A DNA stretch of 38,852 nt from a virus: positions 1 through 38,852 of IMG/VR virus record IMGVR_UViG_3300030688_000062; one strand, written 5' to 3'. Position 1 is the stretch's first letter. Every line of letters starts with the position of its first letter. Position numbers and translations under genes: made by a program. Under the pieces are notes generated by a model. It ran no database searches. It saw nothing but the letters and a program-made list of their open reading frames with translations, and was not told where the DNA came from. Shown here in pieces: positions 3,603 through 34,889 of the stretch.

Positions 3603-4095
3603 GTTTAAGGAAGAAAAAGCTTTTTCGGAGGCTCTGATAGAGCAAGCTTCAGAAACAATATTTAACCAGCGGCAAGAAGTAGAGCAAGCCGAAAAGGACC
3701 TTTTAGTATCAAAAGAAGCGTTTTCCTTGCAAAACTCGGCACTGGTAGCCAATGAAAAACGCCTCATGGAACAGTTGGAGGAGTTTGAGGCCAAGGAATC
3801 GGCCCTTTCTGGCCGCCTTAAAGATGTCGGAAAGCGCGAGGAGGCTCTCGCCAAGTCCGAGCTGCTCATGGCCGAGCGCAAGGCCGCCCTGGCCAAACTG
3901 GAACAGTCCAGCCGAAAGGAGTCCGAGTCTATCGCCCTGAGCCGCCAGGAGGCATCCGAGGCGCAAAAGAAGGCATTGGAGCTTGCCGACGCCTACGAGC
4001 GCCGCCTGGCCGCCCTGGGCGAGAAGGAGAAGGTCCTGAAGGTACGTGAGATACGCCTGGCTGATAGAGAGGGTGTTGCGCTTTCTCACGGCTAG
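3301..4095 (+). CDS. Long coiled-coil protein
   Basis: A 264-residue protein that is almost entirely a heptad-patterned, Glu/Lys/Ala/Leu-rich coiled coil. It has no signal peptide or membrane segment. The ATG at 3301 lies inside the preceding gene; this frame is open only from 3292, just after a TAA, so the N-terminus is well defined. It is +1 relative to the 3018 frame. The location among neck and tail genes suggests an assembly scaffold or internal structural rod, which is inference. Confidence 0.7.
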   Translation: MELTELSKELEIHLSKAREAEARVLEAQGEAISWEAKSKLFKEKVQKTEAYLLELELKVKEAKEILESSESERQRLDLEAQENRKYLIASAVEKIKKLEAEFKEEKAFSEALIEQASETIFNQRQEVEQAEKDLLVSKEAFSLQNSALVANEKRLMEQLEEFEAKESALSGRLKDVGKREEALAKSELLMAERKAALAKLEQSSRKESESIALSRQEASEAQKKALELADAYERRLAALGEKEKVLKVREIRLADREGVALSHG

Positions 4096-4110
4096 ACGTA
4101 TTCTTGTGAT

Positions 4111-4305
4111 ATGAGCCTTACTCCCTGGTCTATCAATGCGAATATCGACGCCAATGAGCGCCAGTACGACCAGTCCGGCGTGACTTACGACCAGGCAGGG
4201 CTTACCTATGACGGCATACTCGCTTCGGCAATCAGCCCGTCCCTATCACCCTGGACTCCTAATACTGCTCCGTCTCATACCTCCTGGACAATCGTTACCC
4301 CATGA
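4111..4305 (+). CDS. Small neck/tail-cluster protein
   Basis: A 64-residue protein. A short repeat (YDQSGVTYDQAGLTYDG) sits near residues 19-35, a pattern seen in small proteins of tailed-phage connector clusters. The stop overlaps the next start (ATGA at 4302), indicating translational coupling with the following tail gene. Function unknown. Confidence 0.6.
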   Translation: MSLTPWSINANIDANERQYDQSGVTYDQAGLTYDGILASAISPSLSPWTPNTAPSHTSWTIVTP

Positions 4306-9276: not shown

Positions 9277-10338
9277 ATGGCCACCTATACTGTTGCCGCC
9301 GGAGACACAGCGATTCAGATCGCACAGAAGCTAGGACTTTCTTCCTATACCCAATTAGGCGGCCTTGGTAGTGATCCCTCGCTCATCCACCCGGGCCAGG
9401 TACTGACCTATGGCGCATCCTCGCCGTCCCAAGCCACATCCACTTCTTCCACACCTAGTACGTCTTCCGCTCCTTCCTCTGGCGGCTACTCTTCCGACGT
9501 GCCTTCCGGCGACCCTTTGCTCTCCCAGGACATGGCTTCGCTGAACAGCGACCAGTCAGACTTGCAGACGCTTGCCGCCCAGCAGGCCGCCGCCCTGAAC
9601 ACCCAGTCTGCTACCAACCAGGGGACCATTGCCAACGCATACCAGACTGCCGAGGGGCAGACAGGACTCCAAGGCATCCAGAACACCTACAACAGCCTTC
9701 AGGACGCCTACACGAAGGCCCAGGGACAAGCAAACGCCGCCCCGGTAAACGCCGTCCTTGACTCTGCCGGGCATGATGTGATGAGCTCTACCGCTGCTGC
9801 CGCCGGCACTGCCAACGCCCTGGTGCCGGGACTTACCGCCTCCAACGACGCCCTTGCCCTCGTGCCTGCCCAGAACGCCCTCAATACGGCCATGCAGAAC
9901 ACCCAGAACATCGCCGGCAACATCGTCACCGGGGCGCAGCTGAACCAGGCCGGGTTTACCGCCGGCCAGCAGATCCAGCTTCAGGCCCTTGAGTCGAAGA
10001 TTACCCAGGGCCAGCAACTGACCAACGACGAGTACAACAGCTATACCTCCCTTAAGTCGGCCCAGATCGGCGCTGCCGCTCAGGTTCAGTCTGCCAATAT
10101 CGGAGCGGGAGCGACTGAGGCTGCCGCTACGACCACCGCTAACGCTAGCGAGCAGAATACCCAGGCTACCAACGCCTTGAACAAGATAATAGCCGAGCTT
10201 GAGAATCCCGGGGCCTCGGTCAACGGAAACGGCGTAGGAAGCGTCAATCTTCAGGAAGCCTTAACTGGGCAGTCATCGAACGGAACGCCATCTTCCATCG
10301 CCGCTATCAACTCGGCTCTTTCTAAGTACGGATTCTAA
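9277..10338 (+). CDS. LysM-domain internal virion protein
   Basis: A 353-residue protein. Residues 1-47 are a LysM domain (YTVAAGDTAIQIAQKLG ... HPGQVL), a peptidoglycan-binding fold. A Ser/Thr/Pro linker (48-75) precedes a long Ala/Gln/Asn-rich helical region with no membrane segment. The next gene starts inside its stop codon (TAATGG). LysM plus long helices next to a large ejection-like protein suggests a virion protein that engages the cell wall during DNA delivery. I see no lytic catalytic domain. Confidence in LysM is high, in the role moderate. Confidence 0.75.
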   Translation: MATYTVAAGDTAIQIAQKLGLSSYTQLGGLGSDPSLIHPGQVLTYGASSPSQATSTSSTPSTSSAPSSGGYSSDVPSGDPLLSQDMASLNSDQSDLQTLAAQQAAALNTQSATNQGTIANAYQTAEGQTGLQGIQNTYNSLQDAYTKAQGQANAAPVNAVLDSAGHDVMSSTAAAAGTANALVPGLTASNDALALVPAQNALNTAMQNTQNIAGNIVTGAQLNQAGFTAGQQIQLQALESKITQGQQLTNDEYNSYTSLKSAQIGAAAQVQSANIGAGATEAAATTTANASEQNTQATNALNKIIAELENPGASVNGNGVGSVNLQEALTGQSSNGTPSSIAAINSALSKYGF

Positions 10339-12461
10339 TGGCCACGCCAACCCTCAACCTGGCCCCTGACGTTCAGACCCGGTACAACCAGGCCATGAGC
10401 GACCCTTCCATCTCCTCCAACCCGCAAGCGGTACAACAGCTTACGGCCCAGGCACAGCAGCAAAGCCAGCAGGAACAGCAGTCGCAAGCACCGGCCGCTC
10501 CCGCACAACCGGCTGCCCCTTCCTACGGCGGCCTTAAGGGCGTATTCCTTAACTCTAACAGCCCCCTGAACCTCCAGAATCTGGGGGGTACGCTCGGCAT
10601 GGTCGGCACGGACGCCGTAGGAGCCCTGCTTGCCCCTGAGACCGGCGGCCTCTCATTGGCTGGCGCTATCCCGCTTGGGGCGGCTTTGGCTGCCAGCGGG
10701 AGCGTTGCCGGGAAGGCCGCCCAGAACAAGCTGACCGGGCAGAACGTCACTTCAGGTCTTGGTGGGGCGGCAGCGGAAGGAGCCATCGGAGGCGCTGCCG
10801 GTCCAGTTATCGGGAAGGTCGTAGGAGGCGTTACCGACGCCCTTTCAAGTAAGCTCATTAGCGAGGGAGACGATGCCGCTGTTAAGTCGCTCGGCCTTTC
10901 CCAAGCCAACCGTAACGCCTTCTTTAAGGCGACTGGCCAGACTGCCTCTGACTTTCTGAAGGAGCAGAACCTGGCCGGTGAGGGAACCGATGCTGTAAAG
11001 GCCGCCCAGGACGCCCTGCAGACCCAGTACAATAATATCGCCCGCAACTCGGGAATCAAGGTTCCTATCGCCCAGGTGGTAAAGGATCTGGCCGGATCAC
11101 TCGGAGATTCCGATCTGACTACTCCCCAGGGCGAGGCTTCAGCAGACCAGGCATACTCCACGCTTAAGACCATTATCAAGAACCTTCCCCAGGACGGGGA
11201 GGGGAACGTGGATATCGGCGACCTTACCAATGCCAAGTCAAATATCCAGTCCCAGACAAACTTTGACGCTACTCGTCCGGGTGCTACCCAGAAGGCTAAC
11301 GAGGCCGTTTCCAACAGCCTTATGGGTACGATCAACAATGCGGCTGAAGAAGCCGGACTTACCTCGACTGACGGAAAGCCGCTGTCTGTCATCGGTCAGA
11401 CCCTCAACAGGTTCCGCACCATTACCGGAATGATAGGTAGCAAGGAACCCGGTACAGTCGGCTCGGGAACGCTTGCCAAGGTGATCGGCCACGCCATACT
11501 TCCTGGCACCGGAGCCGTGATAGGTGGAGCTATCGGAGGCCTTACCGGGGGAGAGTCTGGGGCGGCAACAGGAGCTGAGATCGGGGGAGGGATAGGGGCG
11601 GGATCTGAGGCGCTACTGCAATCCCCCGCAGTCCTTAGCAAGCTCGCTACCGTTTTGCCAGCTATTAGTTCCAAGTTGGCCCCGCAGGTTTCCGATGTGG
11701 CTGCAAAGGCAGGACTGACGGGTACGGAAGCCGCTACCGCCTCCCTTGGGCCATCACTTTCAACGCCGCTTTCCGTAGCTACCTCCATACCGGGTCGCCT
11801 AGTTGGCAACTCCGCTATCCAGGATACGGGTACCGTACTCGGACAGCAGTCCCTTCCGGCTTCTCCCTCCCTTTCGGACGTATCTTCTAGCACCAGTCCT
11901 GCTGCTAGCCAGCCTACTGGTTCGGCTGATCCGCTCCAGTCGGGAATAGCCGCTATCCAGGCAGGGCAGCCACTTTCAACTGCCCAGTACACCGCCCTTG
12001 AGGATGCTACTTCCCTTATGCCTAAGCTTCAGGCAGGGATTACGGCGGCGTACCAGGCTAGCAATCCCACGGTAACGCAGGGGCTTGGGATCGCCTCGGG
12101 TGTTACTAACAGCCTTCAGAACCTTTACAACGCCGCAGGCGGCGGCCAGGGACTGGTGATGGGAAACATCGAGAACGTCCTTTCCCCCATCACTAAGGGG
12201 ACGGCAAACGCCTACAACCAGCAGAAGCTGGCGCTGGGCCAGGAGATCATCAACCAGATCTACGGCTCTACCGGTACCGCTTCCGACCGTGATCAGGTGC
12301 TTTCCCTTATTCCTGACCTAAGCGATTCTCCTGCTAACGCCGCTAGCAAGCTTGCCCAGCTTAGAAACATGATTCAGACGAGACTCCAGGCTACCCAGGG
12401 AGCTACCCCTACCAGTGTCACGGCGACAAACTCCGGCCCGTCCCTTAGCTTGCAGCCATGA
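10338..12461 (+). CDS. Large internal virion / DNA-ejection protein
   Basis: A 707-residue protein. The N-terminus is Gln/Ala/Pro-rich (1-65). Residues about 85-165 and 390-425 hold Gly-zipper segments (AIGGAAGPVIGKVVGG; AVIGGAIGGLTGG), likely membrane-inserting. The rest is Ala/Gln/Ser-rich helix. Size, composition and place at the end of the tail cluster match ejection proteins of podoviruses that form a channel in the host envelope. It is coupled to the LysM gene (TAATG) and to a 30-codon gene (ATGA). Confidence 0.65.
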   Translation: MATPTLNLAPDVQTRYNQAMSDPSISSNPQAVQQLTAQAQQQSQQEQQSQAPAAPAQPAAPSYGGLKGVFLNSNSPLNLQNLGGTLGMVGTDAVGALLAPETGGLSLAGAIPLGAALAASGSVAGKAAQNKLTGQNVTSGLGGAAAEGAIGGAAGPVIGKVVGGVTDALSSKLISEGDDAAVKSLGLSQANRNAFFKATGQTASDFLKEQNLAGEGTDAVKAAQDALQTQYNNIARNSGIKVPIAQVVKDLAGSLGDSDLTTPQGEASADQAYSTLKTIIKNLPQDGEGNVDIGDLTNAKSNIQSQTNFDATRPGATQKANEAVSNSLMGTINNAAEEAGLTSTDGKPLSVIGQTLNRFRTITGMIGSKEPGTVGSGTLAKVIGHAILPGTGAVIGGAIGGLTGGESGAATGAEIGGGIGAGSEALLQSPAVLSKLATVLPAISSKLAPQVSDVAAKAGLTGTEAATASLGPSLSTPLSVATSIPGRLVGNSAIQDTGTVLGQQSLPASPSLSDVSSSTSPAASQPTGSADPLQSGIAAIQAGQPLSTAQYTALEDATSLMPKLQAGITAAYQASNPTVTQGLGIASGVTNSLQNLYNAAGGGQGLVMGNIENVLSPITKGTANAYNQQKLALGQEIINQIYGSTGTASDRDQVLSLIPDLSDSPANAASKLAQLRNMIQTRLQATQGATPTSVTATNSGPSLSLQP

Positions 12462-13300: not shown

Positions 13301-13504
13301 TCAGAGGGTAACGTTATCACGCTCGTTGGCTTTAACGGCTTGGCTAAACGAGTCGGCGATTACCTCTAGGACCGATATGATTTCAATGGGGGTCAGGTCA
13401 CTCTCGGACATGATCGTGCGGACGGACATGATAGCTTGCTTAGAGACCCGATTCATCACGTCAAGGCGGGACTCTGGGTGACCTTTGGCTAGTTTATTGC
13501 TCAT
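13301..13504 (-). CDS. Hypothetical helical protein
   Basis: A 67-residue protein whose start overlaps the last codons of groEL by 11 bases. It is mostly helical (MNRVSKQAIMSVRTIM; IEIISVLEVIADSFSQAV), with no membrane segment or Cys pairs. Its position behind groEL suggests shared transcription. No family recognised. Confidence 0.55.
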   Translation of the reverse strand: MSNKLAKGHPESRLDVMNRVSKQAIMSVRTIMSESDLTPIEIISVLEVIADSFSQAVKANERDNVTL

Positions 13505-15116
13505 ATCGCTCCTTTTTAGGCTCTTCCGCTACCAGGACGGACGTAGTAAGCATCATCACAGCGCATGAAGCCGCGTTCTCCAAAGCGGATTTGGTGACCT
13601 TCACCGGGTCGATGATGCCGGACTTCACCATGTTCTTGGGGCTAGCGTCAATCACGTCGATTCCGAAGTTTTCCTTCTTAAGGACGGCCTCGAGCTCTCC
13701 TAGCATTTTTCCGGAATCGTATCCGGCGTTCTCCATGAGCTTCTTGAACGGCTGGACTGACGCTCGGCGCACTAGGTCAATGCCTAGCTGCACGTCACCG
13801 CTCTCTTTGAGGGTGTCCAGAGCCTTGGAGGCGCGGATCAGGGCGGTCTCGCCCCCTGGTACAATTCCCTCAGCCATGGCAGCACGGGTGGCGCTGATGG
13901 CGTCGATGAAGCGCTCTTTACGCTCACGCATCTCGGCTTCGGTGGAGGCTCCAACGAATACGATGCCAATACCAGAAGTTAGGCGGGCGATGCGTTCCTG
14001 GAGCTTATCGTGGTCGAAGTCGGTCTCAGCCTTCTCGTTGGCATTTTTAAGCTCCTGGACACGAGAGGCGATAGCTTCAGTAGCCCCCTCACCGCCAATG
14101 ATGACGGTATTCTTCTCAGTTGCCGTGACTTTTTCAGCACGTCCTAAGTCTTCGATATCGAAGCCTTCCTCGGTGAGTTTATCCCCAGCCTCTGTGGAAA
14201 AGTATTTAGCGCCGGTGACGACCGCTATATCACGAAGCATATCCTTCTGCTTATCCCCGAATCCGGGGGCCTTCACGGCGCAGACATTGAATACACCTTT
14301 AAGCTTGTTGACGATCATAAGGGCCAGGGCGTCACCGGTGATATCTTCACCGATTACTAGGATGTTGGGATTCTCGACGGCATGCTCCTGGATAGCGTTG
14401 GCGAACTTCTGGAGGAACGGCTGGGCGTCGGCTACACTTGACAGCTTGATGTCTGTAACTAAGACGTAGGGGCGCTCGAGTACGCACTCTCCAAGCTCAG
14501 GATTAGTGACGAAGTGGGGGGCGAGCCAGCCGCGGTTGAAGTCCATACCTTCTTTGATCTCAAGGTAGGTACTCGTGGTCTGTGACTCCTCAACAGCCAA
14601 CACGCCGTCCGTGCCCATGCGCGATATACCCTCGGTGACAATCTTCCCGATTTCCTCGTTCTGGGCGGAGATGGTAGCTACCTGTAAGAGTTCGGCCTCT
14701 CCTTTGACGGGGATAGCGATGTCGTCAAGCTCCTTGGTCATGGCCGCGACGGCCTTTTCGATGCCAATGCGAAGGCGCATAGCTGAGGCACCGGCCACGA
14801 TGTTCTTGTGGGCTTCAGCGGCGATGGCGTATCCGAGGACGGCCGCGGTAGTGGTACCGTCCCCAGCATTGTCATTAGTCTTGGCGGACGCCTCCTTGAG
14901 CAGCTCGCAGCCGATAGCCTCGTTCGGGTCTTTCAGGATAATTTCCCGGGCTACCCCTATGCCGTCGTGGATGACGATAGGCGGCCCGTATTCCCGGGCG
15001 ATGGCCACATTGGAACCCTTGGGGCCGAGCGTTGAGCCAACGGCATCGGAAAGGGTCTTGGCACCACGCAGGAGAGCCTCGCGGGCGGCTAGGTCGAAGG
15101 TGATGTCTTTTGCCAT
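13494..15116 (-). CDS. groL: Chaperonin GroEL, 60-kDa class I subunit
   Basis: A 540-residue protein, full length for the family. The start is the ATG at 15116 (MAKDITF), not upstream codons inside groES. Equatorial, intermediate and apical domains are all present. The ATPase motif GDGTTT is at 85-90, with the Asp that corresponds to E. coli Asp87. The catalytic Asp of the intermediate domain is kept near residue 398 (DAISATRAAMAEG). The usual GGM-rich tail is missing; the protein ends in a charged EEPKKERYEQ. The start follows the GroES stop by one base, giving a normal groES-groEL order. GroEL refolds proteins in an ATP-driven double-ring cage. Here it probably serves capsid or tail folding. 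Identity is certain; client proteins are inferred. Confidence 0.97.
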   Translation of the reverse strand: MAKDITFDLAAREALLRGAKTLSDAVGSTLGPKGSNVAIAREYGPPIVIHDGIGVAREIILKDPNEAIGCELLKEASAKTNDNAGDGTTTAAVLGYAIAAEAHKNIVAGASAMRLRIGIEKAVAAMTKELDDIAIPVKGEAELLQVATISAQNEEIGKIVTEGISRMGTDGVLAVEESQTTSTYLEIKEGMDFNRGWLAPHFVTNPELGECVLERPYVLVTDIKLSSVADAQPFLQKFANAIQEHAVENPNILVIGEDITGDALALMIVNKLKGVFNVCAVKAPGFGDKQKDMLRDIAVVTGAKYFSTEAGDKLTEEGFDIEDLGRAEKVTATEKNTVIIGGEGATEAIASRVQELKNANEKAETDFDHDKLQERIARLTSGIGIVFVGASTEAEMRERKERFIDAISATRAAMAEGIVPGGETALIRASKALDTLKESGDVQLGIDLVRRASVQPFKKLMENAGYDSGKMLGELEAVLKKENFGIDVIDASPKNMVKSGIIDPVKVTKSALENAASCAVMMLTTSVLVAEEPKKERYEQ

Positions 15117-15117
15117 G

Positions 15118-15399
15118 TTAGTTAAGTTTAGCGATGATGTTTTCAAATCGGATTCCGACGTATTTCTTGAAGTCCACCTCGATCTCTGAACTGTAATACT
15201 TGCGGAAGGCAACTAAGTCTCCAACCGCCAGGTCAGGTACGTTAAGGAGGATACCTCCATCAACGTAGGTCTTGGACTCTGGCAGGGCGACGACCTTACC
15301 GCTCAGGGTTTCGTTCTTGGCGCTCTCGGGAAGTTCCAGAAGTCCCGCTCGCTTTTTATTTTCTGTTTCAAGGAGAATCCAGCCTGGCATTGCGATCAT
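15118..15399 (-). CDS. groS: Co-chaperonin GroES, 10-kDa subunit
   Basis: A 93-residue protein, the usual GroES size, starting at the ATG at 15399 (MIAMPGWILL); a TTG 33 codons upstream is open but adds non-homologous sequence. The mobile-loop region (KKRAGLLELPES) and roof/barrel segments (GKVVALPES; VGDLVAFRKY) match the GroES pattern, and the C-terminus ends in strand-forming ENIIAKL. It forms the heptameric lid of the GroEL cage. It begins a leftward operon with groEL and three small genes. The 112 bp upstream are shared with the divergent gene at 15512. Confidence 0.9.
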   Translation of the reverse strand: MIAMPGWILLETENKKRAGLLELPESAKNETLSGKVVALPESKTYVDGGILLNVPDLAVGDLVAFRKYYSSEIEVDFKKYVGIRFENIIAKLN

Positions 15400-15511
15400 A
15401 CCGATCGATTTAGTTGTAGGTACTACTATTGAACCATACAGGGGCCAAAATGTATAGACTGTATGTTTCTGGTAGGGAGTGGTAAAATTGATATACAAAT
15501 AACTCTTTTAT

Positions 15512-17671: not shown

Positions 17672-17680
17672 CTCCACAAA

Positions 17681-17709
17681 AAAAGAGACCCGATTACCGG
17701 GTCTCTTTT
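17681..17709. terminator. Strong bidirectional terminator
   Basis: A 12-bp perfect stem (17681-17692 with 17698-17709), 5-nt loop, A-run before and T-run after, so it works on both strands. It separates the rightward lysis cluster from the leftward accessory operon that ends at 17713. Confidence 0.9.
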
Positions 17710-17712
17710 GGT

Positions 17713-17850
17713 TTACAAATACTTTACGAACTCCCCCATGACATTGAGCTTCACTTCCTTCTTATTCTTCTTAGGCTCATCCTCAATCTTTTCTATTACT
17801 CCATTAGATTCTAGGTAGACTTCAGCCAGAGCTATTAAAAACTTTTTCAC
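17713..17850 (-). CDS. 45-residue charged protein
   Basis: GTG start at 17850; the product begins MKKFLIALAEVYLESNGVIE and is rich in Lys and Glu. An AAAGGAGGA sequence lies about 25 nt upstream and a TATAGT box about 50 nt upstream. It is the last leftward gene before the bidirectional terminator. Too short for a family call. Confidence 0.45.
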   Translation of the reverse strand: MKKFLIALAEVYLESNGVIEKIEDEPKKNKKEVKLNVMGEFVKYL

Positions 17851-17929
17851 GTTAGTTTATCTATTTGTTAATCCTCCTTTTTTGGGATTACACTATAGTA
17901 CCTCTAAATGAGTAATAAGTCAATGGGTT

Positions 17930-18081
17930 TGGTGCGTCTGGTGGGAATCGAACCCACATCTCCTACTGCCTTACGGCATCCTATATTTACCCCCAGACCA
18001 GCTAGGGAACCCTTACGGGGACTTTCGGAGTTAGAGCTGGCTAGTTAAGTCAGATGTTAGTGATCCATTCACCTCAGACGC
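17930..18081 (-). ncRNA. 152-nt tRNA-like RNA with an inserted structured domain
   Basis: On the minus strand the 3' end has a canonical T-arm (5-bp stem GTGGG/CCCAC around TTCGATT), a 7-nt acceptor strand, a discriminator A and an encoded CCA (17930-17932). The matching 5' acceptor strand (GCGTCTG, 18081-18075) pairs 7 of 7. Two nt later a short D-arm forms (GTGA, loop ATGGA, TCAC). There is no normal anticodon arm. Instead about 90 nt hold a helix ATCT/AGAT next to the T-arm, a CCAGCT/AGCTGG stem and two hairpins with GTAA (GNRA) tetraloops. It lacks the tag frame of tmRNA and is too short for a complete group I intron. It could be a tRNA with a relic insertion, a reduced tmRNA-like RNA or a tRNA mimic. 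Confidence 0.6.
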
Positions 18082-18157: not shown

Positions 18158-18460
18158 TTGTATCATGGGCATATGATACTGAGCTATCTGAAGCCAATAA
18201 CGGGGGAGAGACCGCCTAATTGGTACTACCAATCTAAATGGTGGCGGGAGTTTTCTATGGAGGTCCGTATGGATAGGCGGTACATTTGTGATCTGTGTCA
18301 TGGGCATGGCTACCAAGTCCATCATATGTACTATCCAGGGGCAGGCCTAGAGTGCAAGGACGGGGTTTTATGTCTATGCGAGCGTTGTCATAAGGCTGTT
18401 CATAAAAGCCCCTGGAAGGTGCCATTTAGACAGATTCTAGGGGCTTGGCTTCACGGGTAG
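18158..18460 (+). CDS. HNH endonuclease, small free-standing type
   Basis: About 100 residues. A TTG at 18158 has AAGGAGG 9 nt upstream; an ATG at 18173 would shorten it by five residues. The C-terminal half is an HNH/His-Me-type core with two Cys pairs (CDLCHGHG, CERCH) and the catalytic VHH (YQVHHMYYP), ending in CHKAVHKSPW. It is plus-strand and divergent from the tRNA-like RNA, alone among leftward genes. Such genes are mobile nicking or homing enzymes. Location beside a tRNA-like gene suggests it moved here or targets that locus. Confidence 0.75.
   Translation: MYHGHMILSYLKPITGERPPNWYYQSKWWREFSMEVRMDRRYICDLCHGHGYQVHHMYYPGAGLECKDGVLCLCERCHKAVHKSPWKVPFRQILGAWLHG
18160..18179. promoter_or_regulatory. 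Inverted repeat at the HNH start
   Basis: GTATCAT (18160-18166) and ATGATAC (18173-18179) form a perfect 7-bp inverted repeat with a 6-nt spacer. It covers the start region of the HNH gene and lies upstream of the divergent tRNA-like RNA. It could be an operator or a hairpin that hides the start. Confidence 0.4.
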
Positions 18461-21312: not shown

Positions 21313-21819
21313 TTACCGGATCTCGTACTTGATATCACCCTTGCAGATCAACTCCGAATCGCCGTCAACCTGGACGTACTTGGTTTCTTCCTTGTTATAA
21401 CACATACCGAAGAACCAACCTGAAGTAAGGGAAAGCTTGCCATACACCTGAGCGTCGCCATACACCTGAGCGTCGCCGTACACCCAAGCGTCGCCGTACA
21501 CCCGAGCGTCGCCGTACACCCAAGCGTTGCCGTACACCCAAGCGTCGCCGTACACCTCGGCGTCGCCGTACACCTGAGCGTCGCCATACACCTGAGCGTC
21601 GCCGTACACCCAAGCGTTGCCATACACCTGAGCGTCGCCGTACACCCAAGCGTCGCCAGACACCCGAGCGTCGCCATTGACTTCCTCGGATTCTACCCAT
21701 CCGCCTTTCTCGCCCTTCTTAGCCTTGCCTGGAATGTCTACGATCGCCTCGATGCGGTACAACTTCACTCCCCATAGATTTACCTTGCTTTCGTTCGTCA
21801 GCTTGAATGTCAGTTCCAT
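21313..21819 (-). CDS. Hexapeptide-repeat beta-helix protein
   Basis: A 168-residue protein. Residues 1-45 form a small N-terminal domain ending in GKAKKGEKGGWVESE. Residues 48-127 are about 13 copies of a 6-residue repeat (GDAxVY, x = Q, W, R or E). Such a period gives a left-handed or box-like beta-helix. Residues 128-168 cap it (SGWFFGMCYNKEE). Related repeat proteins occur in several phages, but with no established function. It may form an elongated binding surface in the infected cell. Confidence 0.7.
   Translation of the reverse strand: MELTFKLTNESKVNLWGVKLYRIEAIVDIPGKAKKGEKGGWVESEEVNGDARVSGDAWVYGDAQVYGNAWVYGDAQVYGDAQVYGDAEVYGDAWVYGNAWVYGDARVYGDAWVYGDAQVYGDAQVYGKLSLTSGWFFGMCYNKEETKYVQVDGDSELICKGDIKYEIR
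21438..21672 (-). repeat. 18-bp coding tandem repeats
   Basis: About 13 near-identical 18-bp units (plus strand CGTCGCCGTACACC plus a variable codon) encode the GDAxVY repeats. Units differ mostly at the x codon. Prone to slipped-strand copy-number change. Confidence 0.85.
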
Positions 21820-22530: not shown

Positions 22531-23640
22531 TTATACTTCCTTAAACTCACCTTCTCTAAGTACGTACCAAACATCTTCCTTTAGGATAGTACCGTCAACT
22601 TGAGCTGACTTTACACATAGGGGTATATACTTATTATCGTCATATCTCCACTCGGCTAAGGTTATCCAGTCACCTTTCTTAGCTTTAATTTTATTATTAA
22701 TTCCGATCCCAGCTCCTACGCTATATCCTCCTGTAAGTTCAAGCTTGGCAGAGTCACCACTGGCCGCAAGCTGGGCAGATTCACCACTGGCCGCAAGCTT
22801 GGCAAAGTTACCACTGGCCGCAAGCTGGGCAGAGTAACCACCGGCCGCAAGCTTGGCAGAGTCACCGCTGGCCGCAAGCTTGGCAGAGTAACCACTGGCC
22901 GCAAGCTTGGCAGAGTCACCACTGGCCGCAAGCTGGGCAGAGTAACCACTGGCCGCAAGCTTGGCAGAGTCACCGCTGGCCGCAAGCTTGGCAGAGTAAC
23001 CACTGGCCGCAAGCTTGGCAAAGTTACCACTGGCCGCAAGCTTGGCAGAGTAACCACTGGCCGCAAGCTGGGCAGAGTTACCACCGGCCGCAAGCTGGGA
23101 AGAGTCACCACTGGCCGCAAGCTGGGCAGATTCACCACTGGCCGCAAGCTTGGCAGAGTCACCACTGGCCGCAAGCTGGGCAGAGTAACCACTGGCCGCA
23201 AGCTGGGCAGAGTTACCACCGGCCGCAAGCTGGGCAGAGTCACCACTGGCCGCAAGCTGGGCAGATTCACCACTGGCTTCTTCTTTGTTATTACAAGATT
23301 CCCAAAGGAAGTCGAAGGAGGCTTTAATATAGGCCCTAAGATCTAACTTGGCTCCGATCTTAATTCTATTTGTGACGACCTTACTATCATCAGGATGGGT
23401 TTGTGTTTCTCCGAGGGACTCTACTTCATGAAAGTTTGAGTCTATAAGATCGTAGTAGCCGAGACAGTCGAGAGGATTCGTGCAGAAATGAAATCCAGTA
23501 ACACAAATCTTTATCGCTTCTTTAATCTCATACTCCTTACCTTCTTCGTAGGTAAATTCTTTACAAGTCATATCCTTGTTAAACGCCTTGTATCCTTTGA
23601 TGACAGGATATTCTTTCTTCGGTGATTTCTTAGCGGGCAT
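22531..23640 (-). CDS. DUF7666-like protein with 9-residue repeats
   Basis: A 369-residue protein; ATG at 23640 (a TTG three codons upstream is also open). Residues 1-110 match the N-terminal plan of a phage family I associate with DUF7666: KGYKAFNKDMTCKEFTYEEG, then GFHFCTNPLDCLGYY and KIGAKLDLRAYIKASFDFLWE. About 20 copies of a 9-residue unit (SGDSAQLAA and variants) follow. A short C-terminal domain closes the protein. Regular Ala/Leu/Ser repeats suggest a solenoid. Function unknown; the family is common on large accessory phage operons. Confidence 0.7.
   Translation of the reverse strand: MPAKKSPKKEYPVIKGYKAFNKDMTCKEFTYEEGKEYEIKEAIKICVTGFHFCTNPLDCLGYYDLIDSNFHEVESLGETQTHPDDSKVVTNRIKIGAKLDLRAYIKASFDFLWESCNNKEEASGESAQLAASGDSAQLAAGGNSAQLAASGYSAQLAASGDSAKLAASGESAQLAASGDSSQLAAGGNSAQLAASGYSAKLAASGNFAKLAASGYSAKLAASGDSAKLAASGYSAQLAASGDSAKLAASGYSAKLAASGDSAKLAAGGYSAQLAASGNFAKLAASGESAQLAASGDSAKLELTGGYSVGAGIGINNKIKAKKGDWITLAEWRYDDNKYIPLCVKSAQVDGTILKEDVWYVLREGEFKEV
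22741..23277 (-). repeat. 27-bp coding tandem repeats
   Basis: About 20 units of 27 bp around GGCCGCAAGCTTGGCAGAG (plus strand) with four or five common variants. Frame is preserved because 27 is a multiple of three. There are no unique spacers, so this is not a CRISPR array. Confidence 0.9.
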
Positions 23641-24037
23641 TGTAGTCAATAATTATTTTGGGATAGATGATGTTTGAGAGGATGACTTTGAACAGGGGGG
23701 CTATTTCAGAGATATCATAACCAGCAATTCCTAATCCAACGGGAGTGAGGTAGAAGGTTAATTCAGGATGATGTATAGCGTAACGATAGAAGTTATCTCG
23801 GTATGTCTCAAGCCCAAATACCTTACCTAATTTAATAGGGACCTTCCGATGATTTTCGTCGAGAGTTGGAAAAGCGTAAGACCTTCCCTGTATCCCTTCT
23901 GGCTTACCCTCTATTGCTCCAAATAGCTCAACCGCTGTCCTAGCTGCCCCTCCGGCATGATTTCCGGCCAAGTTTGAGCCAAAAACGAATACCCCTCCTG
24001 GTGGTAGATCGGTAATGTGTTCTGGGGTGTAATTCAT
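23630..24037 (-). CDS. Macro-domain-like phage protein
   Basis: A 135-residue protein from the ATG at 24037 (MNYTPEHITDL). The core VFVFGSNLAGNHAGGAART, then YAFPTLDENHRKVPI and FYLTPVGLGIAGYDISEIAP, fits a macro-domain-like family found in phage genomes, with the glycine-rich loop that binds ADP-ribose type ligands. It may remove or read ADP-ribose marks used in host defence, which is inference. It overlaps the next gene by 11 bases. Confidence 0.7.
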   Translation of the reverse strand: MNYTPEHITDLPPGGVFVFGSNLAGNHAGGAARTAVELFGAIEGKPEGIQGRSYAFPTLDENHRKVPIKLGKVFGLETYRDNFYRYAIHHPELTFYLTPVGLGIAGYDISEIAPLFKVILSNIIYPKIIIDYNAR

Positions 24038-28751: not shown

Positions 28752-28928
28752 ATGGAACGCAACAAACAGTATTATATTACCTCCTGGAAGGCTCAACTTG
28801 ATGCAGAGCCTACCAAAGTCGGAGCTATGACAGAGGGAGCTTGGTACGTTTCATGGCTTGGATTACTTTCCAGGTTGTACTGTAATAATTGTATAACTTA
28901 CGCTGAATATGAGACAGAAATATATTGA
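28752..28928 (+). CDS. Small protein at the early switch
   Basis: A 58-residue protein from the ATG at 28752. Aromatic and polar (MERNKQYYITSWKAQLDAEP; YCNNC). First gene of the rightward switch operon; its 3' end overlaps the HTH gene by 20 nt. No recognised domain. Confidence 0.55.
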   Translation: MERNKQYYITSWKAQLDAEPTKVGAMTEGAWYVSWLGLLSRLYCNNCITYAEYETEIY

Positions 28929-29115
28929 GCTGCTTAATGACATTGATAGCGGAGAGCTTATAAACACTGACAAGGTGGCAGATTTGCTTGGGGTAAAAAG
29001 AATCACCGTGCAGCGGTTATACAAACGGGGTGATCTTCCTGGCCGCAAGCCCCTGGCTGGTGGATGGATACTATTTGATCGGGAGGATGTAGAGAAGCTC
29101 TTAAAAAGGCCCTAG
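28909..29115 (+). CDS. HTH DNA-binding regulator (excisionase/AlpA-like)
   Basis: A 68-residue protein. LINTDKVADLLGVKRITVQR forms a helix-turn-helix, followed by a wing (RGDLPGRKPLAGGWILFDRE) and a last helix, the MerR/excisionase HTH_17 plan. It probably controls the divergent promoters at 28.6-28.75 kb; the repeated GTGGTGCA motif is a candidate site. With no integrase gene present, a regulator role is more likely than excisionase. Confidence 0.75.
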   Translation: MRQKYIELLNDIDSGELINTDKVADLLGVKRITVQRLYKRGDLPGRKPLAGGWILFDREDVEKLLKRP

Positions 29116-32164: not shown

Positions 32165-32521
32165 ATGCCTAAGCACGCTACCTCAACCAGCTTCAAGAAG
32201 GGACAGCAGGCCGCTCTTGGAAACGACAAGACGGCCAAGCTTTCCACGCTCCTGGAGATAGCGCTTAAAAGTGCAAATACCCGCAAGGAATATGAGCAGG
32301 CAAGAACTCTAGGAGCGGCTATAGCTACCGATTTCGCCAACTCATACTGGCAGGCCAAGACCGTCCAGGATAAGAAGGCGGTATTCTCCGAGCTCATGGA
32401 CCGCACTGAGGGCAAGGCGACCCAGCCCGTGCTGCACGGCGAGGATAACGACCATCCCTTCACTTCCATTTTTCTAAAGCCAGAAAAGCTTCCTGATGAT
32501 CAAGATCACGGCGACTCCTGA
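32165..32521 (+). CDS. Terminase small subunit candidate
   Basis: A 118-residue protein directly before the large subunit, overlapping it by 26 bases. The N-terminus is basic (TSFKKGQQAALGNDKTAKLS), then a helical core (LLEIALKSANTRKEYEQARTL) and a DRTEGKATQP motif seen in small terminase-type proteins. It would recognise phage DNA and regulate the motor. Assignment rests on size, motif and position. Confidence 0.65.
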   Translation: MPKHATSTSFKKGQQAALGNDKTAKLSTLLEIALKSANTRKEYEQARTLGAAIATDFANSYWQAKTVQDKKAVFSELMDRTEGKATQPVLHGEDNDHPFTSIFLKPEKLPDDQDHGDS

Positions 32522-34889
32522 TATCCTGGCGAAGTACGACCGCGTCTGGATACCGCATCCCGGACCCCAGACAGAGTTACTACGGCGCAATGAGGATGAG
32601 ATATTGTACGGCGGAGCCCGGGGCGGCGGCAAGTCCGACGGCGGCCGGGCCTGGATTACCGACCACGTGGACAATCCCCTGTATAGGGCTCTGGTAATAC
32701 GAAAGAACGCCGGAGACCTTGCCGACTGGGTAGACAAGGCCCGGTATTGGTACGTCCCGATGGGGGCGGTTTTTGCGTATCAGCCGACAGTAATCACTTG
32801 GCCGAGCGGCGCAAAGATCATTACCGGCCACCTCAAGGACGCTGACGCTTATACTAAGTACCAGGGCCAGGAGTTCCAGCGAATGCTCATCGAGGAGCTG
32901 ACGCAGATACCGGACAAGAAGCGCTATGTCCAGCTCATTGGATCCTGCCGCTCAACGGTTCCCGGCATTAGGCCTCAGGTTCTTAACACGGCCAATCCCG
33001 GCAACATCGGCCACCAATGGGTAAAGGAGCGCTTCATCGACCCGGCTGTTCCCGGGACGAGGTTCAAGGACGCCACCGGCCGCAGCTTCATCTTCATACC
33101 CTCGACCATCGATGACAACCCGACGCTGACGGAGAACGACCCGGGATACGTCCGCTACCTCGACAGCATCAAGGAGACCGACGAGAACCTGTGGAGGGCC
33201 TGGCGCTACGGCGACTGGTCCATCTTCGTGGGCCAGGTATTTGCCAAGTTCCGGCCCGACACGCACGTCCTGAACCGCTTGCCTGACGGCGTAAAGCTAT
33301 CTGACTGCAAGAAGATCGTTGGCTTTGACTGGGGCTATAACGCCCCGGGAGCTGCTGTGTTCATCGCTGTAACGCCAAAGAACCGCTGGGGAGTCAAACA
33401 CTACTACCAGTACCGGGAGCTCTACCTGACCAAGAATGACCCCGCCGAATGGGCGGCTCGCCTGGCCGAACTCAACGAGATTGACAACATCGACTGGATG
33501 GTGCTGCCGCACGACTGCTACAGCGAGGCTCAAGGCCATAAGAGCATCGAGAAGGTGTTCAAGGAATATATGCCTGGACTTAATTTTATCCGCGGAAAGA
33601 CGCTAAGTAAGGGTGCCCGTCACCAGCGCGTAGCCATCATGCAGTGGTGTCTGAACGCCGACGATAATGAGCCTGAAGGTCCTCCACGCTTCCGGATGCT
33701 CTCACGCTGCACCGACATGATACGGACTCTACCTAACCTGGTATACGACGAGAACGACATCGAGGACATCGACTGCTTCGTAACGGGAACCATGATATCT
33801 ACCCAATCCGGCGATATTCCAGTCGAGTTGGTCAAGACCGGCGATATGATACTCACGCCTGTCGGTCCTCGGAAGGTCATAGTGTGCGGTGAGCCAAAGG
33901 AGTCGCCTACCTGGACCGTCAAGTTGAGCAACGGAAGCGAGTTGCAGGGCACACCGAACCATAAGGTATTCGTTAAGGGAAATGGTCTTACTGAGTTGCG
34001 ATCATGCCTATGTGATGATATACTAGAGACATGGAATACAACATATCTGACAAGCTTACCTCAGTTGAATACAGAGGTATTACCTACCGACGCTATCATG
34101 GACGGCGGTACTTCGAACCGAACGGAAGCTACCTTGCAAAGGGGTATACTTCGCTTCATCGCCAAGTCTACATCGACAACAATGGCCTTATACCGGAAGG
34201 CATGCACGTTCATCACAGGGACCACGATACGGGCAACAATGACCCTGATAACCTTGAGCTTGTTGAGAAGGGGAAGCATGCGCTACTACACTACCGCGAG
34301 CGAGTCCGCTCAGGGGAGCTCCCAGACCACCTGGACAAATGGCGCAAGAGTCCAGAAGGGAAGCGAACCCTCCGTGAGAATCTGGCTAAAGCTCGTGAGA
34401 GAAGCCCTGTCCGGCAACTATCGTGCGGTCATTGTGGACAGCATATTAAAACGCAGCACCAGACCAAGCGGTTCTGTTCAGAAGCATGCTCGCATGCCGC
34501 TCGGAATGCCGATCATGTCAGAAAATGTCCAATCTGCGGGAATGACTTCGTCTACAAAAACAAACGCAGTGGCCGCACCTGTTCGTATCGTTGCGGTTGG
34601 ATCCTCAGAAAGACAGCCAGTCTACCGCCTACGGGTTGAGCAGGCCCACCTCTACTATGCAAACGGTATTCTCGTAACTAACACAGACGGGGAGGACCAT
34701 CTCTTTGACGCGGCGAGTCTTGCGCTCATGACAGAGATATCGGATGCTCCTTCCGGCCGCGTCATCCAGACCAATGTATCCTCCTTATTTAAGCCCACAG
34801 AGACCTTTGGACTGTCCCGAGATGGCCTGGTCGTTCCGCGTGACGCCCTGGATGAGCTTAGAGAGAGCTTGCCAAACTACGGTAATTAG
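32496..34889 (+). CDS. terL: Terminase large subunit with intein
   Basis: The 797-residue open frame is 494 residues of terminase plus a 303-residue intein. The packaging ATPase has Walker A GGARGGGKS (39-47) and Walker B RMLIEE (about 129-134). The RNase H-like nuclease has Asp278 in FDWGYNAP and the last acidic motif TDGEDHLFDA (730-739). The intein is inserted exactly before that motif, between Asp426 and Thr730, so splicing is needed to rebuild the nuclease site. The protein cuts concatemers and pumps DNA through the portal. Inside the intein lies a second gene in another frame (34031-34639). Confidence 0.92.
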   Translation: MIKITATPDILAKYDRVWIPHPGPQTELLRRNEDEILYGGARGGGKSDGGRAWITDHVDNPLYRALVIRKNAGDLADWVDKARYWYVPMGAVFAYQPTVITWPSGAKIITGHLKDADAYTKYQGQEFQRMLIEELTQIPDKKRYVQLIGSCRSTVPGIRPQVLNTANPGNIGHQWVKERFIDPAVPGTRFKDATGRSFIFIPSTIDDNPTLTENDPGYVRYLDSIKETDENLWRAWRYGDWSIFVGQVFAKFRPDTHVLNRLPDGVKLSDCKKIVGFDWGYNAPGAAVFIAVTPKNRWGVKHYYQYRELYLTKNDPAEWAARLAELNEIDNIDWMVLPHDCYSEAQGHKSIEKVFKEYMPGLNFIRGKTLSKGARHQRVAIMQWCLNADDNEPEGPPRFRMLSRCTDMIRTLPNLVYDENDIEDIDCFVTGTMISTQSGDIPVELVKTGDMILTPVGPRKVIVCGEPKESPTWTVKLSNGSELQGTPNHKVFVKGNGLTELRSCLCDDILETWNTTYLTSLPQLNTEVLPTDAIMDGGTSNRTEATLQRGILRFIAKSTSTTMALYRKACTFITGTTIRATMTLITLSLLRRGSMRYYTTASESAQGSSQTTWTNGARVQKGSEPSVRIWLKLVREALSGNYRAVIVDSILKRSTRPSGSVQKHARMPLGMPIMSENVQSAGMTSSTKTNAVAAPVRIVAVGSSERQPVYRLRVEQAHLYYANGILVTNTDGEDHLFDAASLALMTEISDAPSGRVIQTNVSSLFKPTETFGLSRDGLVVPRDALDELRESLPNYGN
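33996..34024 (+). promoter_or_regulatory. Promoter inside the intein for the HNH gene
   Basis: TTGCGA (33996-34001), exactly 17 nt, TATACT (34019-34024), with the HNH ATG 6 nt downstream at 34031. The layout matches the leaderless-type promoters at 28714 and 31609. It lies within intein coding sequence. Confidence 0.6.
34031..34639 (+). CDS. HNH homing endonuclease nested out of frame in the intein
   Basis: A 202-residue protein, in a different frame from terminase. Residues about 38-92 form an HNH core: GYTSLHRQVYIDNNG, IPEGMHVHHRDHDTGNNDPDNLE and HALLH, with catalytic HH and downstream Asn/His. Residues 130-195 carry three Cys-rich zinc modules (CGHCG..FCSEAC; CPICG; CSYRC) like DNA-binding tails of homing enzymes. 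The last about 20 codons overlap the C-terminal splicing block of the intein, so about 60 bases code for two proteins. It probably cleaves intein-less terminase genes and spreads the element. Confidence 0.85.
   Translation: MEYNISDKLTSVEYRGITYRRYHGRRYFEPNGSYLAKGYTSLHRQVYIDNNGLIPEGMHVHHRDHDTGNNDPDNLELVEKGKHALLHYRERVRSGELPDHLDKWRKSPEGKRTLRENLAKARERSPVRQLSCGHCGQHIKTQHQTKRFCSEACSHAARNADHVRKCPICGNDFVYKNKRSGRTCSYRCGWILRKTASLPPTG

Follow-up and report, generated by a model that had tools for sequence, protein, structure and literature searches.

The minus strand at positions 17930-18081 carries the gene of a real and unusual tRNA-like RNA, which is most likely a functional phage RNA and possibly a recently broken tRNA. 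Our best reading, to which we give a probability of about 0.45 as a whole explanation, is a phage-encoded, non-decoding tRNA-like RNA that would act in trans, a decoy being the likeliest role. The window, which is the whole stretch of DNA analysed (38,852 nucleotides), bears a direct terminal repeat of 127 nt, which marks it as a complete genome assembled as a circle; other samples yielded near-identical contigs that span the join and represent other parts of the genome. Its MCP and portal proteins are nearest to those of MW202566 (Manatee Spring) and MG269973 (TM7 phage), the latter having an MCP 34% identical to that of the window, and a groEL/Cpn60-type gene is common to all three. Because the MCP and portal are TM7-phage-like and groEL is shared, a Saccharibacteria-type host is likely, judging from sequence. 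The features of the RNA and its surroundings are as follows.

17930..18081, minus (read 18081→17930): whole tRNA-like RNA, 152 nt, with the layout GCGTCTG-AG-GTGA-ATGGA-TCAC-(102 nt)-GTGGG-TTCGATT-CCCAC-CAGACGC-A-CCA
18075..18081, minus: acceptor 5' strand GCGTCTG, 7/7 Watson-Crick with 17934-17940
18074-18073, minus: A8 G9, preceding the D-arm-like hairpin
18060..18072, minus: D-arm-like hairpin GTGA-ATGGA-TCAC, 4 bp, loop with GG
17958..18059, minus: domain replacing the anticodon arm, 102 nt
17998..18040, minus: possible stem CCAGCT (18040-18035) / AGCTGG (18003-17998), in the unconstrained MFE fold only
18010..18019, minus: hairpin CCC-GTAA-GGG, GNRA loop
17967..17978, minus: hairpin TGCC-GTAA-GGCA, GNRA loop
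17941..17957, minus: canonical T-arm GTGGG-TTCGATT-CCCAC
17930..17940, minus: acceptor 3' strand CAGACGC (17940-17934), discriminator A73 (17933) and encoded CCA (17932-17930)
17895..17923, minus: sigma70-like promoter TTGACT-17-TACTAT, just downstream of the RNA; consensus match only
17713..17850, minus: 45-aa ORF with GTG start and AAAGGAGG upstream, downstream of the sigma70-like promoter; no Pfam match
18158..18460, plus: HNH endonuclease gene, 100 aa, divergent, outside the RNA (PHROG 119, E=1.6e-6)
13494-15498, minus: groEL and groES pair, adjacent also in MW202566

All the parts that the sequence-only reading had described are present. Like a canonical tRNA, the RNA has a 7-bp acceptor, a T-arm, an encoded CCA and a D-arm at the right position. 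The combination of a T-arm with a perfect Watson-Crick acceptor and CCA occurs once in the window and is absent from 400 dinucleotide-shuffled versions of the whole window, both strands being searched. A D-arm of four Watson-Crick pairs with GG in its loop, at the exact position, has p=0.002 in a shuffle test, and two GNRA hairpins of at least three Watson-Crick base pairs each within the insert have P=0.0006; as these features were chosen after inspection, the individual p-values are somewhat optimistic, and the most weight falls on the shuffle test of the tRNA-like ends. The replacement of the anticodon arm by an insert with two GTAA hairpins is thus upheld, at a length of 102 nt. The CCAGCT/AGCTGG stem fared less well: both segments exist, but their pairing is seen only in the unconstrained fold, is absent from the constrained one, which favours other pairs, and is weakly supported. 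The inner domain shows no extra stability over shuffles (MFE z=+0.88), and folding of the whole 152-nt RNA gives z=-1.37.

The RNA departs from a canonical tRNA in having no anticodon arm, an insert of about 100 nt, a D-loop of only 5 nt, and A rather than U at position 8, so that the U8-A14 contact is missing. No anticodon arm with U33 is found between the D-arm and T-arm, either in the sequence as it stands or once a splice is assumed. From this sequence anatomy, we consider it probable that the upper half of a tRNA closes a domain of about 100 nt that takes the place of the anticodon arm.

The HNH gene reported to flank the RNA is real but divergent, and a search through it returned no relatives. 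A palindrome, GTATCAT-GGGCAT-ATGATAC, lies at its start (18160-18180) and is a possible operator or hairpin. The stretch immediately upstream of the RNA shows no clear promoter. Past the sigma70-like promoter and the 45-aa ORF, an inverted repeat resembling a terminator (about 17680-17710) was seen by eye; it is absent from the list produced by the scan. Elsewhere in the genome, the large terminase (32496-34889) is interrupted by an intein, with Hint_2 and Intein_splicing matches, and a further HNH ORF (34031-34639) lies in another frame. Two highly repetitive proteins are encoded on the minus strand at 22531-23649 and 21313-21819, with SAKLAASG-type and VYGDA-type repeats; the former has DUF7666 at its N-terminus.

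Relatives of the RNA were sought via the HNH gene, an endolysin-like gene, MCP and portal, via an acceptor plus T-arm pattern and a GAGATG plus T-arm pattern, and by BLAST against phages and plasmids. No homologue was found in IMG/VR, in the phage and plasmid collections or among the fetched relatives, and in four near-identical or related contigs the RNA locus lies outside their coverage. With no homologue there is no covariation, which counts against our best reading. A 178-nt candidate relative (L020) was rejected, being a permuted tRNA-like.

Across the whole window, neither ARAGORN nor Rfam at curated cut-offs reports a tRNA, a tmRNA or an intron, and the tRNA scan makes no call at the locus, where the sequence-only reading would have yielded to a normal tRNA. 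Its suggestion of a relic intron finds no support: ARAGORN in intron mode (-i) returns nothing at the RNA, and the best cloverleaf obtained after cutting out 40-95 nt is matched by 57% of shuffles. The same results make a small functional intron, spliced out to give a tRNA, quite improbable, even though insert-bearing phage tRNAs exist and an HNH gene adjoins, since that gene is divergent and outside the RNA. A group I intron would, as noted before, need more length than the insert has (102 nt against an expected length of more than about 200 nt), and there is no core and no Rfam intron match. A likelier alternative, though still an unlikely one, is a phage tRNA gene inactivated by insertion or rearrangement in the anticodon region, its intact ends being merely recent. 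The ends do look like those of an ordinary tRNA, nothing about the stability of the inner domain is exceptional, and inserts occur in other phage tRNAs, as at L303:13011-13160 (minus; about 72 nt in the D-loop) and L410 near 10255-10400 (minus; a 64-nt anticodon insert detected by ARAGORN -i). However, removal of any 40-95 nt restores no anticodon stem, A8 and the 5-nt D-loop already depart from a tRNA, and the two GNRA hairpins suggest an organised insert. An attP site, whose 3' part would reproduce the end of a host tRNA gene so that the phage can integrate there, would account for the intact T-arm, acceptor and CCA, which form the usual crossover segment, and positions 28909-29115 encode a small HTH protein of excisionase type; yet no integrase is found among the phage proteins searched, and the matching 5' acceptor strand and D-arm, both present, would be superfluous, leaving attP very improbable.

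Two known RNA families also have to be weighed. A reduced tmRNA, another suggestion of the sequence-only reading, draws on A8 followed by GG, on a CATCT/AGATG helix-like element beside the T-arm, as in tmRNA P2, and on the tmRNA-type domains of related phages. Membership in tmRNA (RF00023) fails, in that acceptor pair 3-70 is G-C and not the G-U alanine identity pair, a D-stem is present, and the P2-like helix is not significant (P=0.84). As stated before, there is no tag frame, none on the minus strand, on which the RNA is read, being alanine-rich. The Rfam tmRNA model aligns only the T-arm (15.5/12.8 bits against a cut-off of 47), while a model of tag-less phage tmRNA domains (R1) gives 20.4 bits over the T-arm half only, about as for ordinary tRNAs; two true members (L007 and L108) score 51-55. 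We therefore regard a reduced tmRNA as highly improbable. The permuted two-piece tmRNA (RF04321) was likewise rejected, at 16.5 bits against a cut-off of 47, with the acceptor complement upstream only. Less remote, but still decidedly unlikely, is a diverged skipping-rope RNA (RF02924), from a family of structured phage RNAs that has a pseudoknot (PMC7779021), whose terminal stem and last hairpin would resemble, or have become, the acceptor and T-arm. The window RNA shares with it an 8-bp terminal stem, the conserved GAGG after that stem, GAGAUG directly 5' of the last hairpin, and a 5-bp last hairpin abutting the stem; cmscan of the RNA alone gives 21.0 bits (E=0.0071) over the full-length model. 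This is far under the cut-off of 36.7, with the first hairpin and the middle unaligned, and a search of this kind elsewhere assigned E=0.003 to a family that was clearly false. A genome-scale search has no match in the window, and the TTCGATT loop and ACCA are left unexplained, the last hairpin here being a true T-arm with CCA.

The reading that survives is a tRNA mimic, which had been among those proposed at the outset. For a phage-encoded, non-decoding RNA acting in trans we count the tripartite match of the ends, the D-arm, the GNRA hairpins, the completeness of the genome, and the short anticodon-less tmRNA-type domains carried by two members of its phage clade, the TM7 phage MG269973 and contig L108, with 97 IMG/VR contigs fitting a pattern for such domains. 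Against it stand A8, the 5-nt D-loop, an inner domain no stabler than shuffles, the lack of a clear upstream promoter, and no tie to SmpB, EF-Tu or a nuclease. Having no anticodon, the RNA could not decode and would thus act in trans. Host RNase P and 3' processing would mature it as they do a tRNA, and contact between the D-loop and T-loop would give it a tRNA elbow. The RNA may then occupy host factors that recognise the upper half of tRNA or tmRNA, such as SmpB, EF-Tu, a synthetase or a tRNA-cutting defence nuclease, while the inner domain would add stability or a second contact. The decoy function in itself, drawn by analogy, is put forward only tentatively.

The nearest analogues are the tag-less (TLD-only) tmRNAs of mycobacteriophage DS6A and some plastids (PMC4131195, PMC11915505), which likewise consist of the upper half of a tRNA without anticodon, and share with the window RNA the T-arm and a GG in the D region; the DS6A form is phage-encoded too. 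At some 65-85 nt they are shorter, lack a D-stem and retain sequence features of tmRNA, whereas the window RNA has 152 nt, a D-stem, G3-C70 and an inner domain of 102 nt. A passage in PMC4131195, citing Mao et al. 2009, reports that the TLD alone strongly inhibits tmRNA, alanine-chargeable or not, perhaps via SmpB titration. As this inhibition is regardless of charging, the missing G3-U70 pair is compatible with a decoy. In the literature searched, the tag-less form is described from one phage, DS6A, plus plastids (PMC4131195, PMC11915505), and the tmRNA database holds 79 phage tmRNAs in all, 9 of them 'standard, no CDS'.

A scan of about 147 loci of related phages for a T-arm, CCA and acceptor without an ARAGORN call returned two short anticodon-less domains, in the TM7 phage (L007:7955-8020, minus) and in L108:565-636 (plus); the former is matched by the Rfam tmRNA model at 34.9 bits (E=1.8e-12). 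A search pattern built from the two, GGGCNNGANNGG … GGTTCRANTCCNNNCNNGTCC, matches at least 97 IMG/VR contigs. The 80 that were fetched (L259-L338), together with the original two, measure 61-83 nt from G1 to C72 and have G3-U70, with no tag frame and no anticodon arm. Covariation is strong: all 33 aligned members form acceptor pairs 5 and 6, which the pattern leaves free, and each of these two pairs occurs in five or six types; the pattern-free T-stem pairs are formed in nearly all aligned members. This set is one of tag-less tmRNA tRNA-like domains. The Rfam tmRNA cut-off is passed by four of the eight loci tried; ARAGORN calls a tRNA in 2/80 (RNA alone) or 4/82 (whole loci), and no tmRNA in the 82 loci. 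BLAST of two of the domains against named phages gave nothing. In the TM7 phage the domain is directly preceded, on its upstream side, by an RNA of about 190 nt (L007:8020-8215, minus) that folds stably and is closed by GTACGGCCTG/CAGGCCGTAC, with z=-2.55 for the whole stretch.

Other tRNA-like RNAs were seen in these searches. The scan of related phages gave an odd tRNA-like of 144 nt (L069), and L408:1519-1650 (plus) is a 132-nt RNA with an acceptor and a T-arm but neither a D-arm nor an anticodon arm. L156 (G019:C1 about 4090-4300) and L020:4100-4280, both also from that scan, are permuted, the T-arm and CCA piece preceding the 5' acceptor strand and D-arm; upstream of them, each contig has a similar gene. 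The permuted halves of L156 enclose a normal tRNA-Gly, and pairing between the two pieces is possible through CACATTG/CAATGTG and TGTAAG/CTTACA, which suggests a two-piece RNA. Further permuted tRNA-likes, with no call from ARAGORN or Rfam, are found at L471:1807-1994 (minus), L196:13638-13665 (minus) and L370:8229-8256 (plus). For one permuted gene of L471 the split falls within the anticodon loop (GGATT ... AATCC), an arrangement that presumably resembles the permuted tRNA genes of red algae. Permuted tRNA-likes and YrlA Y-RNA have in common with the window RNA a tRNA-like module within a longer RNA; their T-arm precedes the 5' acceptor strand, whereas the window RNA is not permuted.

It is conceivable, though on balance doubtful, that the window RNA represents a new trans-acting phage RNA, in which the upper half of a tRNA is both a stabilising cap and a factor-binding module for an unrelated structured domain of about 100 nt. 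It would then belong to a wider, little-described set of phage non-decoding tRNA-likes, a grouping we hold equally doubtful, that takes in tag-less tmRNA domains, permuted tRNA-likes and insert-bearing tRNA-likes. The tag-less tmRNA set is a stronger lead than the orphan RNA of the window, which is moderately interesting. Standard annotation misses most of these domains, and the set is testable material. If phages commonly make anticodon-less tRNA-likes, these may offer cheap interference with ribosome rescue or decoys for tRNA-targeting defences.
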